Source: Halomonas icarae (GTDB lineage Bacteria; Pseudomonadota; Gammaproteobacteria; Pseudomonadales; Halomonadaceae). Taken from it: DNA of 64,000 nucleotides. The notes under the pieces are model-generated. The model did no database searches and was not told the DNA's origin. It was given only the letters and a program-made list of their open reading frames with translations. The DNA is taken from the NCBI RefSeq assembly GCF_009901955.1, contig NZ_WUTS01000001.1, forward strand, positions 2,828,172-2,892,171, read 5' to 3'. Positions within the stretch are counted from its first letter, which is position 1. Every line of letters starts with the position of its first letter. The translations under genes were made by a program, and so were the position numbers. Of the stretch, positions 29,994-43,423 are shown piece after piece.

Positions 29994-30624
29994 CCTGTCC
30001 TCCCCGACCGAGACGAATATGCCGCAGCTGATGTGAAGCCTTGAGTTCATGGTGGGTGGTCACCAACACACACCCGCCCGAGCGGGCATGTGTCACCAGG
30101 CGAGCCTCCAGCGCCTCGACGCCTTCGCGATCGATGGCGGTGAAGGGTTCATCGAGTACCCATAGTGGCCGCGGCGTCAGTTCCAGTCGGGCCAGCGCCA
30201 CCCGGCGCTGCTGACCGGCAGAGAGCTGACCTGCGGGAAGATCCTCGAAGCCAGCCAGCCCCACCGCCTCCAGGGCCGCCAGTCGCGTTGGCTCCTGAAC
30301 CGGCTCACCGGCCAGCGCCTGATACCAGGCGAGATTCTCCAGCGGCGTCAGGGCCGCCTTCACACCTGGGGCATGGCCCAGATAGAGCAGATTCTCGAGG
30401 AAGGCCTGGCGCGCTTGGCGCATCGGACGCTCGTTCCAGAACAGCTCACCCTGATAGTCGGCGAGCTGCCCGGAGAGGATCTTGAGCAGGGTGGTCTTGC
30501 CGCTGCCGTTGGGGCCCTCAACGCGCACGATCTCGCCCCCTCGAATATCGAGGTCGAGGTCCTTGAACAGCCACCGGTCATCCCGTTCACAGGCCAGGTC
30601 ACTAGCTTGCAGGCGCAGGGTCAA
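29980..30624 (-). CDS. ccmA: ATP-binding protein CcmA
   Basis: ATPase of the CcmABCD complex that frees haem-loaded CcmE. The 214 residues have Walker A GPNGSGKT (37-44), signature LSAGQQRRVALARL and Walker B LWVLDEPFTAID. The start is TTG with GGAG 6 nt upstream, and no upstream ATG fits. First gene of the ccm operon, divergent from the SOS-controlled autoprotease gene across 190 nt. Confidence 0.96.
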   Translation of the reverse strand: MTLRLQASDLACERDDRWLFKDLDLDIRGGEIVRVEGPNGSGKTTLLKILSGQLADYQGELFWNERPMRQARQAFLENLLYLGHAPGVKAALTPLENLAWYQALAGEPVQEPTRLAALEAVGLAGFEDLPAGQLSAGQQRRVALARLELTPRPLWVLDEPFTAIDREGVEALEARLVTHARSGGCVLVTTHHELKASHQLRHIRLGRGGQDAEH

Positions 30625-30751
30625 GACACACTCCGGTGGATGGGTAGTTTGGCCCGAGACTCTACACGTAAAGCCCTTTTCCTGCCAGAGAGGGGTACCG
30701 CGTCGGCCGGTCGCAGTTGACGTGCATCAAGCGCATCGTCGATTACTCACC

Positions 30752-30779
30752 TTGCCAGATTTGGCGTCCCTGCTATGCT
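30752..30779 (+). promoter_or_regulatory. Sigma-70 promoter of the S24 autoprotease gene
   Basis: TTGCCA (30752-30757), a 16-bp spacer and TATGCT (30774-30779). The expected start is near 30786, immediately before the SOS operator. Confidence 0.65.
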
Positions 30780-30788
30780 CTCTAAACA

Positions 30789-30804
30789 CTGTATGTTTCA
30801 ACAG
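30789..30804. promoter_or_regulatory. LexA operator (SOS box)
   Basis: CTG-TATGTTTCAA-CAG fits the CTG-N10-CAG SOS-box consensus, including the TAT after CTG. It lies just downstream of the predicted start site, a repressing position. Its right end overlaps the ribosome site of the next gene. Confidence 0.8.
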
Positions 30805-30814
30805 GAGGTATGCC

Positions 30815-31309
30815 ATGTTCGAGGCCAGCACGCGGTACATGATACGTCACCCCAACCGGCGCCTCGCCGAGGCGTGGTCGCCCTGCCCTCTTCCCGGCGA
30901 TCCCCAGGACGCACTCGAGGAAATGGTCGACATCCCCCTGCTGGGCAGCATCGCGGCGGGGATGCCTATCGAGGCCTGCCCCAGCGTCAGCCATATTCGC
31001 GTTCCTCGTCGCATGGTGCGTCGCAACACCTACGCCCTACGGGTGTGTGGCGACTCCATGATCGATTGCAACATCTTCGATGGAGATGTGATCATTATCG
31101 AACAGTGCGAAAGCGCGGAGAATGGCGAGACCGCGGTGGTAATGATCAATGGCCAGGAGGTCACCCTGAAGAAGCTCTATATCGAAAAGTCCGGCGTGCG
31201 TCTGCAACCCGCCAACCGGCAGATGGCCCCCATTTTCCTGAAGAACAGCGATATCCAGGTGCTGGGGATGGTGATGGGCGTGGTACGTCAGGGCGAGCTG
31301 GCCGCCTGA
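30815..31309 (+). CDS. SOS-regulated S24 autoprotease (LexA/UmuD fold, no DNA-binding domain)
   Basis: A 164-residue protein whose C-terminal part (about 40-164) is a LexA/UmuD-type peptidase S24 domain. A likely self-cleavage site is Ala48-Gly49 in SIAAGMP; catalytic Ser81 lies in GDSM and Lys119 in EVTLKK. The N-terminal ~40 residues are too short and lack the LexA winged helix, so this is not a LexA repressor. It resembles UmuD in layout but no umuC follows; yigZ does. AGGAGG lies 7 nt upstream of the ATG. With the SOS box this predicts DNA-damage induction and RecA-stimulated self-cleavage. The role is unknown: polymerase accessory, LexA partner or decoy are possibilities. Confidence 0.85.
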   Translation: MFEASTRYMIRHPNRRLAEAWSPCPLPGDPQDALEEMVDIPLLGSIAAGMPIEACPSVSHIRVPRRMVRRNTYALRVCGDSMIDCNIFDGDVIIIEQCESAENGETAVVMINGQEVTLKKLYIEKSGVRLQPANRQMAPIFLKNSDIQVLGMVMGVVRQGELAA

Positions 31310-31929
31310 TGCGTTACCCGGTACCCGATCTGCCCCCCGGCGAATGGCAGGAGAGCGAACTGGAGGTGGAGAGGAGCCGCTTTATCACCTGGCTCTGCCA
31401 TGCCCCGACCATCGCCGACTTCGAGGCGCTGCTGGAGCAGGCGCGCGAGCGCCACCCCAGCGCCAGCCACCACTGCACCGCCTTTATCGCCGGACCTCCC
31501 GGTGAGCAGGCGGCCATTGGCTTCTCCGATGATGGCGAACCCGGCGGAACCGCCGGGCGCCCCATGTTTCAGGTGCTCGAGGGCTCCGGGCTGGGTCAGG
31601 CGGGCTGCGTGGTCATTCGCTACTTCGGCGGCACCAAGCTAGGCACCGGCGGACTGGCCCGAGCCTACGCCCAGGCCGTCTCCCAGGCACTGGAGGTGCT
31701 GCCCCGTCGCGAGGTGGTCGAGCGCACCTCCCTGAGGCTCCGGGTCGACTTCTCGGGCGAGGCCGAGGCGCGCGGCTGGCTGAGCGAGCGCCGGACCCCG
31801 GTGGAAGAGGCCGATTACGCCGCCGATGGTGTCTGGCTGACCGTTGGCTGGCCAAGCGATGTCGAGGTCGACCTGAGTCCGCTGGCCTCGCGGCTGCGTG
31901 GCAACCTCGAAATTCTCGCCGACGATTAG
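31309..31929 (+). CDS. yigZ: YigZ/IMPACT family protein
   Basis: A 206-residue UPF0029 (IMPACT/YigZ) protein with the signature motifs EVERSRFITW, GFSDDGEPGGTAGRPM and RYFGGTKLGTGGL. Bacterial members are thought to bind nucleic acid or ribosomes, but the function is not settled. The ATG shares a base with the stop of the autoprotease (TGATG), so it is translationally coupled and should also be SOS-induced. Confidence 0.93.
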   Translation: MRYPVPDLPPGEWQESELEVERSRFITWLCHAPTIADFEALLEQARERHPSASHHCTAFIAGPPGEQAAIGFSDDGEPGGTAGRPMFQVLEGSGLGQAGCVVIRYFGGTKLGTGGLARAYAQAVSQALEVLPRREVVERTSLRLRVDFSGEAEARGWLSERRTPVEEADYAADGVWLTVGWPSDVEVDLSPLASRLRGNLEILADD

Positions 31930-31971
31930 TCAAGACTCGGAAAGGCATGCAGAAAGGCATCCGAAAAAAAG

Positions 31972-31993
31972 AAAGGCGCCCGCAGGCGCCTTT
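31972..31993. terminator. Bidirectional terminator between yigZ and oadB
   Basis: AAAGGCGCC and GGCGCCTTT form a 9-bp stem around CGCA. On the minus strand it is followed by TTTCTTTTTTT, so it is a strong terminator for oadGAB. On the plus strand it gives a weaker stop for yigZ. Confidence 0.85.
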
Positions 31994-32016
31994 CACTCGC
32001 ATGGCCGATGCCATCA

Positions 32017-33339
32017 TCAGCCGAGGTACTTGATCATCACCCCCGCGGCCACCGCCGAGCCGATCACCCCGGCCACATTGGGCCCCATGGCATGCATCAG
32101 CAGGAAGTTGTGCGGGTTGGCCTCGAGCCCCACCTTGTTGGAGACCCGGGCCGCCATCGGTACCGCCGAGACACCCGCCGAGCCGATCAACGGGTTGATC
32201 GGTACACGGCTGACCACGTTCAGCAGCTTGGCCATCAGCACGCCGGCGCAGGTGCCGATTCCGAAGGCCACGATGCCCAGGGCCAGGATCCCGAGTGTCT
32301 CCACGGCCAGGAAACTGTCGGCCATCAGCTTGGAGCCCACCGAGAGGCCCAGAATGATGGTGACAATATTGATCAGGGCATTCTGTGCCGTGTCCGAGAG
32401 GCGCTCCACTACCCCGCACTCGCGCATCAGGTTGCCGAAGCAGAACATCCCCAGCAGCGGCGCCGCATCGGGCAGGAAGAAGGCGACCAGCAGCAGGATG
32501 GCGATGGGGAAGGCGATCTTCTCGCGCTTCGACACCGGCCGCAGCTGGGTCATGGTGATCTCGCGCTCCTTCTGGCTGGTCAGCAGCCGCATGATCGGCG
32601 GCTGGATCAGCGGCACCAGCGCCATGTAGGCGTAGGCCGCCACGGCGATCGCCCCCAGCAGCTCCGGGGCCAGCACGCTCGACACATAGATCGAGGTGGG
32701 GCCGTCGGCGCCACCGATGATGCCGATGGCGGCGGCCTGGTTGAGCGAGAAATCCATCACCCCCAGCGACGAGAGCCCCACCGCCCCGAACAGGGTGGCG
32801 AAGATGCCGAACTGCGCGGCCGCCCCCAGGAAAAGGGTACGCGGATTGGCCAGCAGCGGCCCAAAGTCGGTCATCGCCCCCACGCCCATGAAGATGATCA
32901 ACGGAGCGATACCGGAGGCGATGGCAACCTTGTAGAAGCTGTAGAGCATGCCGTCACCGTAGCCGACGCTGGCTGCCACATCGCGACCCGCGCGCAGCGC
33001 ATCCGCCGTGGCCTCCTCCTCGACCACCCCCTTGAGGAGCTCGCGCCACGCCTCGACGCTCGCCTGAGGGTCGAGGGCCACCCCGAGGGCCCCGGCGATC
33101 CGCTCCAGCACCGCCGGTTTGGCCACCTCGATGGCCTGGTCCAGCGCCGACAGCGCCAGGCCCGCCTCGGGAATATTGGCCAGAATGCCACCGAAGCCGA
33201 TCGGTACCAGCAGCAGCGGCTCGAACTTCTTGGCGATGGCCAGATAGAGCAGCAACATGCCGACCAGAATCATCACGGCCTGGCCCGGGGTCAGGTTATA
33301 GACCCCCGAGCCGTACCAGAGTGTCAGTAGTTTCTCCAT
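32017..33339 (-). CDS. oadB: Sodium-pumping oxaloacetate decarboxylase, beta subunit
   Basis: Membrane carboxybiotin decarboxylase that couples decarboxylation to Na+ export. The 440 residues have about nine membrane helices and the conserved segments [44 protein letters not shown] and [18 protein letters not shown], with the aspartate of the GGADGP region used in Na+ transport. It follows oadA by 10 nt and is the last gene of the operon. Contributes to a sodium-motive force. Confidence 0.97.
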
Positions 33340-42306: not shown

Positions 42307-43374
42307 TTACAGCAGATCGCTGCCCTGATCGCCATCGGCCGACAGGGCGGCCTCATTGCCCTCTTCCTTGGCGGGCTCTGCCGTGGCAAGCAGTTGAGCA
42401 CGAATCTGGCTCTCGATCTCCTCCATCACCGCCGGATTATCCTCGAGGAACTGGGCGGCATTGGCCTTGCCCTGGCCAATCTTGTTGCCCTGATAGCTGT
42501 ACCATGCACCGGCCTTGTCGACCAGCTTGCACTGCACGCCCAGGTCGACCACCTCCCCGGCATGGTAGATCCCCTTGCCATAGAGGATCTGGAACTCGGC
42601 CTGGCGGAACGGTGGCGCCACCTTGTTCTTGACCACCTTGACCCGGGTCTCGTTGCCGGTCACCTCGTCGCCCTGCTTGACCGAGCCGGTACGCCGGATA
42701 TCCAGACGCACACTGGAGTAGAACTTGAGCGCATTGCCGCCGGTGGTGGTCTCGGGGCTACCGAACATCACGCCGATCTTCATGCGGATCTGGTTGATGA
42801 ACACCACCATGCAGTTGGCATTCTTGATATTCCCGGTGATCTTGCGCAACGCCTGGGACATCAGGCGCGCCTGCAGACCGACATGGGAGTCGCCCATCTC
42901 GCCCTCGATCTCGGCGCGCGGGGTCAGCGCCGCCACCGAGTCGATGATGATCACGTCGACACCACCGGAGCGCACCAGCATGTCGCAGATTTCAAGGGCC
43001 TGCTCGCCGGTATCGGGCTGGGAAACCAGCAGGTCATCCAGATTGACGCCCAGCTTTTCGGCATAGCTGGGGTCCAGGGCATGCTCGGCGTCGATAAAGG
43101 CGCAGGTCTTGCCCTGCTTCTGTGCCTGGGCGATCACCGAGAGCGTCAGGGTGGTCTTGCCCGAGGACTCCGGGCCGAAGATCTCGACAACCCGACCCAG
43201 CGGCAGACCGCCGATGCCGAGGGCGATATCCAGCCCCAGCGAACCGGTAGAGACCGAGGGCATCACCACCCGCGGCGCATCACCCAGGCGCATCACGGTC
43301 CCCTTGCCGAACTGGCGGTCGATCTGGGATAGGGCGGCGTCCAGCGCCTTGGAGCGATTGTCTTCCTGAGCCAT
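42307..43374 (-). CDS. recA: Recombinase RecA
   Basis: Strand-exchange ATPase and co-protease for LexA-fold proteins, 355 residues. It has Walker A GPESSGKT (67-74), the KAFxDAEHALD-type segment, loop L2 with [15 protein letters not shown], and an acidic C-terminus. ATG with GAGGAG 8 nt upstream. A strong SOS box lies 30 nt before the start. It is the expected activator of the S24 autoprotease at 30815. Confidence 0.99.
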
Positions 43375-43403
43375 CACGGATCTCCTCAATCTGGGTCTCT
43401 TCA

Positions 43404-43423
43404 TACTGTATGACTGAACAGTA
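43404..43423. promoter_or_regulatory. LexA operator (SOS box) of recA
   Basis: TACTGTATGACTGAACAGTA matches the 20-bp SOS consensus: perfect TACTG/CAGTA ends and CTG-N10-CAG core. It lies just upstream of recA on the minus strand. Confidence 0.95.

Follow-up and report, generated by a model that had tools for sequence, protein, structure and literature searches.

The window analysed here is a stretch of 64,000 nucleotides (64 kb) from the Halomonas icarae genome. It carries a short gene, called the solo S24 gene here, whose product resembles the C-terminal domain of LexA and lacks the HTH domain, and the yigZ gene follows it directly. The features of the locus, together with the SOS box of recA that served as a reference, are listed below.

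30752–30779, plus strand: promoter-like site, with a −35 element TTGCCA (30752–30757), a 16-nt spacer, a −10 element TATGCT (30774–30779) and a TG before the −10
30789–30804, no strand: LexA-type SOS box CTGTATGTTTCAACAG, just 3' of the −10 element and overlapping the first Shine-Dalgarno bases
30803–30808, plus strand: Shine-Dalgarno sequence AGGAGG, 6 nt 5' of the ATG, read directly from the sequence
30815–31309, plus strand: solo S24 gene (P0001), 164 aa, encoding a protein that resembles the LexA CTD, has self-cleavage residues and lacks an HTH
30815–30958, plus strand: N-terminal arm, residues 1–48, predicted to be released by cleavage; residues 1–31 have low confidence in the structure model and are probably mobile
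30956–30961, plus strand: predicted cleavage site Ala48-Gly49, invariant in 38/38
31055–31057, plus strand: codon of the catalytic Ser81 (assigned by sequence), invariant in 38/38
31169–31171, plus strand: codon of the catalytic Lys119 (assigned by sequence), invariant in 38/38
31309–31929, plus strand: yigZ (IMPACT/UPF0029 family), 206 aa, PF01205 with E 1.5e-32
43406–43421, no strand: SOS box CTGTATGACTGAACAG of recA (42307–43404, minus strand), the reference in the same window

The S24 domain (PF00717, E 1.1e-28) comprises residues 41–154 of the solo protein. No HTH family was found at E ≤ 1 in the Pfam search, and the second row at this threshold was Beta_helix alone, a weak match under its cut-off. 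Residues Ala48, Gly49, Ser81 and Lys119 are unchanged across all 38 solo sequences that were aligned (P0001 and 37 of 80 named loci, with script-called frames and six dropped). The original prediction of a 164-residue protein with an Ala48-Gly49 site, a Ser81/Lys119 dyad and no HTH is thus confirmed. The AlphaFold2 model has a mean pLDDT of 75.2, with residues 1–31 below 50. The comparison with UmuD and LexA that had been proposed showed that, among solved structures, the C-terminal domains of LexA match best (Z 14.6, 2.5 Å, 117–119 residues), above UmuD' at Z 10.4. The Raf1 C-terminal domain and signal peptidase also appeared as look-alikes; they rank below the LexA group and were taken as sharing the fold only. 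Self-cleavage stimulated by RecA is predicted for the solo protein from its residues and fold.

Family relations and distribution

The same genome encodes a full LexA in a lexA-dinB operon and, on a small contig, an adjacent UmuD and UmuC. It also encodes a helicase-like protein of 635 aa that ends in an S24 domain (L004; G000:C20:9751-10158). The plan of the solo protein had been described as UmuD-like without an adjacent umuC, and this holds, with yigZ following instead. The suggestion that it might stand in for an absent UmuD of some polymerase V encoded elsewhere found no support; this role is ruled out in this genome because its umuC has its own umuD. The solo protein could also have been a fragment of a longer LexA. 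We reject this, since a full LexA lies elsewhere in the genome and the relatives have stop-to-stop frames of 155–171 aa, which leave no room for an HTH; no longer LexA form of the protein was seen among them.

A tree was built from 79 S24 domains. Its solo proteins, 31 and a further six from the genus g11, form one clade with support of 100/98. The 19 UmuD rows form a separate clade (100/100) with the solo protein outside it, and LexA falls into two groups, one of which is next to the solo clade; the tree is built on few alignment columns and its root is not known. The NCBIfam lexA model (TIGR00498) accepts the solo protein at 115.1 bits vs a cut-off of 110.95, although the match covers only model positions 79–201 of 203. 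The UmuD model PRK10276 gives 66.3 bits vs a cut-off of 110. Because the lexA cut-off is passed, automatic annotation may name the solo protein LexA.

Family f1 is taken here to be the Halomonadaceae, in part because its best named UmuC hits are Halomonas plasmids (48–53% identity). Within f1, the solo gene is present in 139/151 genomes; the other 12 were counted as lacking it by best E-values, and two of these are less than 90% complete. The f1 census below covers 136 of the 139 carriers, own genome included, with G030, G045 and G079 left out. A search of the order (E ≤ 1e-19) added 14 intact copies in family f15, two stop-interrupted copies being left out. The class search found the gene, among 369 genomes, in 28 that lie outside f1 and come from 15 families (E ≤ 1.4e-40, 51–62% identity); its weaker matches include full LexA proteins. 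At the phylum level (E ≤ 1e-30), nine further genomes of 398 carry it, all from family f246. A scan of named sequences gave 471 relatives, and the best 80, mostly MAGs, include Thiohalophilus, Thioalkalivibrio, Thiohalomonas, Chromatiales, Ectothiorhodospiraceae, Mariprofundaceae and MAGs labelled Zetaproteobacteria. The family is thus scattered over Gammaproteobacteria and genomes labelled Zetaproteobacteria. A phage or plasmid origin was considered and rejected: matches were found in 122 phage and 4373 plasmid records, every one below 60% identity. Judged by sequence, the solo protein is a widely conserved family of its own.

Control region, yigZ and the g11 copies

A single promoter-like site was found across positions 30600–32100, and shuffled sequences average 0.1. 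The box CTGTATGTTTCAACAG starts 10 nt past this site, so that LexA, if bound there, would sit over the transcription start. The window has two copies of the pattern CTGT-N8-ACAG where 0.6 are expected, one at the solo S24 gene and one upstream of recA. The strict form, CTGTAT-N6-ACAG, has four sites in the 3.5-Mb genome, and the reversed-pattern control has one. Three belong to recA, umuDC and the solo S24 gene, and the fourth is an unassigned site, L101 (G000:C1:1842813), near the frame of a LysR-type regulator. The CTG-N10-CAG box claimed for the start region of the gene is therefore borne out, and it is of the same kind as the box of recA. No perfect box was found upstream of the genome's own lexA, where a near-match was read by eye; LexA is for this reason no more than the presumed reader of the box.

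Among relatives, 76/136 f1 genomes, own included, have CTGT-N8-[AC]CAG within 600 bp upstream of the catalytic region. The same pattern was found in 0/136 downstream windows (up to 600 bp) and in 36/2720 shuffled windows. These controls, together with the genome and window counts, rule out a chance box. The 76 boxes represent 30 distinct 16-mers. In loci L005-L098 the box lies 11 to 235 bp from the start, the starts of relatives being chosen by script. Within f1 the box is nearly all-or-none by genus: it is present in 24/24 genomes of the window's genus, 21/24 of g11, 3/5 of g5 and 28/28 of twelve other genera, and in 0/55 of g2, g4, g8, g10, g16 and g20 together, all of which have the S24-yigZ pair. 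The recA gene of the box-less genera retains CTG-N10-CAG in 7/8 genomes tested (16/19 over all tested), the exception being G007 of g8, where none was seen. The difference therefore sits at the solo S24 gene, and an altered LexA motif as the cause of box loss in the six genera is unsupported. In the boxed lineages, LexA probably binds the box and the solo gene would be induced by damage, as far as sequence can tell.

Outside f1 the picture varies. All 14 f15 copies have a CTG-N10-CAG box of the CTGT type near the start, and a strong CTG-N10-CAG box is present in four of the 80 named loci. A different box, the direct repeat GTTC-N7-GTTC, was considered for the wider class; it precedes 7/11 second-group LexA genes, yet it was found upstream of the solo gene in 1/59 cases, the same as in the downstream control (1/59). 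Most of the wider class is without either LexA-type box, so damage induction is not a trait of the family. A TTA-N11-TAA dyad was observed upstream of 15/47 class-level solo genes, vs 2.6 expected in shuffles.

The yigZ product matches PRK11568 and TIGR00257, both under their cut-offs. The claimed TGATG overlap is confirmed at 31309, where the A of the S24 TGA is the A of the yigZ ATG. When conservation of the pair in relatives was checked, yigZ was found adjoining the solo gene on the same strand in 133/136 f1 genomes (the exceptions are G022, G078 and G091), with the one-base overlap in 88/136 (80 outside g11 and eight in g11). Where the pair is apart, in G022 and G078, the box stays at the S24 gene and no CTGT-type box was seen upstream of yigZ. 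Among 11 genomes with no S24 gene, none has a CTGT-type box within 300 bp of yigZ; in one genome that has yigZ and no S24 gene, G026, such a box lies 650 bp away. The proposed SOS link of yigZ thus stands in part: the pair is kept in f1, yet it is the S24 gene that the box accompanies, and in six paired genera 0/55 genomes have one. SOS control of yigZ, where present, would run through read-through from the S24 gene. The pair lies about 11 kb from recA in the window, and 9–22 kb from it in 13 of the 14 f1 genomes with both on one contig (own genome counted among the 14, G022 the exception). In one other genome recA matches in pieces (G004:C22, 74090-74872, 74991-75170 and 41735-42358), perhaps an interrupted copy and a second one.

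The tight pairing raises the question of whether YigZ is the working partner in a translation or stress task, with the S24 fold as a scaffold. Adjacency in 133/136 genomes and the overlap in 88/136, kept even after the loss of cleavage described below, would fit such a partnership. Outside f1 the pairing breaks down. No yigZ match was found at the solo-gene loci of 14/14 f15 copies or of 13 class-level copies, and the 80 named loci (best 80 of 471) have one match, about 2.5 kb from the solo gene. Moreover, yigZ was found in 0/5 f15 genomes tested, despite the solo gene and its box. We consider a YigZ partnership highly improbable.

The genus g11 differs from all other f1 members. The cleavage site is missing in 24/24 copies and the serine is replaced in 24/24 (18 Arg, five Ala, one Asp). 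The lysine is kept in 15 by script, and the C-terminal strand is kept. The box remains in 21/24 and yigZ in 24/24; three genomes of the 24 have neither a strict box nor the cleavage site. Outside g11, site and serine are present in 112/112 copies (110 called by script, with L063 and L333 read by eye), so within f1 the loss is confined to this one genus. In the S24 tree, the f1 solo clade includes the six g11 copies, whose branch is 1.4 changes per site long. Pseudogene decay of these copies is rejected by dN/dS values of 0.018–0.208 in the printed pairs (17 of 24 loci, saturated pairs left out); other genera range from 0.010 to 0.503. The UmuD of two g11 genomes retains its serine motif.

Six genera thus have cleavage and no box, and g11 has the box and no cleavage. 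The simplest account is that box and cleavage both supply the short domain in damaged cells. Against this account stand the three g11 genomes with neither feature, and most of the wider class, where the cleavage residues occur with no LexA-type box. The g11 loss is one event, so the contrast has few independent cases, and the g11 copy might have a changed function instead of being a locked active form.

Candidate partners and a proposed role

RecA is present in 19/19 genomes tested. UmuC (E ≤ 1e-30) was detected in 19/56 carriers (12/14 in f1, 0/14 in f15 and 7/28 at class level), leaving 37/56 in which it was not. A match to the Y-family model PF00817 was found in 53/56 carriers; of the three with none, two (G623 and G739) are 98–99% complete, and the matches are merely weak in 11/14 f15 genomes. 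The LexA DNA-binding domain (PF01726) had no match in 19/59 carriers, seven of them 98–100% complete, with the caution that two genuine divergent LexA proteins scored just 1e-6 to 1e-7 and that four archaeal controls were also matched. All three kinds of absence may be misses in divergent or incomplete genomes. As UmuC, Y-family polymerases and LexA each went undetected in some carriers, none is an obligate partner by these tests. UmuC cannot be the target in all carriers. The target is probably neither a Y-family polymerase, LexA nor YigZ, and our best guess is RecA filaments or the replicase or its clamp.

These counts bear on the idea that the solo protein serves UmuC, DinB or ImuB in trans, as an ordinary UmuD would. 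Some PF00817 match in 53/56 carriers is compatible with it, as is one genome, G574, that has umuC with no umuD in the fetched locus and the solo gene elsewhere. This locus (L251) is in a complete one-contig genome that has no LexA DNA-binding match, and it is the one case in which the solo protein could serve UmuC in trans. In the other 18 of the 19 umuC-bearing genomes, umuD lies beside umuC (divergently in G712). With UmuC absent in 37/56 carriers, no PF00817 match in G623 and G739, and a solo protein that falls outside the UmuD clade and scores 66.3 vs 110 bits, we regard a role in trans as improbable.

A second alternative is a modulator of the SOS response, in which the domain would form mixed dimers with LexA (or UmuD) through the S24 dimer interface and weaken or tune the repressor, giving SOS feedback. 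The LexA-like fold and C-terminal strand would permit it, and a cleavage-dead copy could still dimerise. In two f148 genomes the solo gene is the divergent neighbour of lexA, which also suits such a role. Set against this are the 19/59 carriers with no PF01726 match, to which the cautions on that model apply, and the UmuC match in 0/14 f15 genomes. Mixed dimers appear unlikely. The two divergent pairs are L153 and L150 (G623 and G739), and L153 has GTTC-N7-GTTC, a motif known from Alphaproteobacteria, within the region that the two genes share, 60 bp ahead of where the solo gene starts. Their LexA proteins belong to the second LexA group (L259-L266, L278, L150, L153), which has these direct repeats upstream in 7/11 cases and, at least in G611, G646, G653 and G658, a PF00817 gene as its neighbour.

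The protein could instead be a decoy or timer on RecA filaments. Induced by SOS, it would be a rival substrate to LexA at the coprotease site, slowing the response or bringing it to an end. The full set of cleavage residues outside g11, the SOS-type box in many genera and RecA in 19/19 genomes tested are all as expected of a decoy, and the non-cleavable g11 form could act as a lasting blocker. A decoy leaves unexplained why the domain is conserved in lineages with no visible SOS box, and the g11 copies have a C-terminal strand but no longer the cleavage loop and serine. We judge a decoy to be distinctly unlikely.

We favor, tentatively and at somewhat short of even confidence, a switch of the UmuD kind, in which the C-terminal domain acts as the effector once freed, and in which transcription, cleavage or both provide the dependence on damage. 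LexA would repress the solo gene, and yigZ by read-through, and the SOS response would raise both. The full-length protein would carry a mobile N-terminal arm, and RecA filaments would bring about its cleavage at Ala48-Gly49. The working form would be the S24 domain released in this way, which is probably dimeric. Transcription and cleavage would then be two gates on one product, and lineages could have both gates, cleavage only (the six box-less genera) or the box only (g11, whose protein would be born with neither arm nor serine). This switch builds on the anatomy, fold, box, promoter overlap, operon, separate family, purifying selection and loss pattern established above from sequence. Counting against it are the lack of a LexA-type box in most of the wider class, the near-match in place of a perfect box at the genome's own lexA, the variable distance between box and start, and the three g11 genomes with neither strict box nor cleavage site.

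A broader proposal, which we offer as speculative and doubtful, is that the family is a third branch of S24 proteins triggered by RecA, beside the repressors (LexA, CI) and the polymerase managers (UmuD). Once freed, its domain would be an effector of the SOS response with RecA filaments or the replicase as its target, independently of translesion polymerases and LexA. Induction and self-cleavage would be interchangeable gates, with one genus providing a natural pseudoprotease that has the first only.

Accounts of the SOS response usually centre on LexA and UmuD. A distinct family of their self-cleaving type, kept where LexA, UmuC or Y-family polymerases were not found, points to an undescribed task linked to RecA; it appears to be a conserved RecA-type switch with no known client. 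The dead active site of g11 offers a direct test of the purpose of self-cleavage. That the NCBI lexA model accepts a protein lacking a DNA-binding domain is a warning for annotation. We found no description of an HTH-less stand-alone LexA/UmuD family among the matches listed in the open-licence full-text literature, and no paper there naming 'YigZ' together with 'SOS response', absences that carry little weight.

Several known systems resemble the solo protein in part. HumD is a phage homologue of UmuD', a naturally short, arm-less UmuD'-like form. As such it resembles the g11 copies; however, the HumD model (NF051876) has no match to the solo protein at E ≤ 1, and the solo gene is chromosomal. 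The LexA C-terminal domain (TIGR00498, PF00717; PDB IDs: 3k2z, 8s7g) shares its fold, Ala-Gly site and Ser-Lys dyad with the solo protein, but LexA has an HTH DNA-binding domain, and the solo protein has none and forms a separate clade. UmuD and UmuD' (PRK10276; PDB IDs: 1ay9, 8gmt) have in common with it a short arm, an S24 domain, an SOS-type box and the lack of an HTH. UmuD is encoded in an operon with umuC, whereas the solo gene has no umuC beside it and its product falls outside the UmuD clade. UmuDAb of Acinetobacter is, like the solo protein, a UmuD-related S24 protein that has departed from the plain role of a polymerase accessory; its N-terminal domain is reported to be needed for repression (PMC4807011, PMC11332147), and the solo protein has no such domain.
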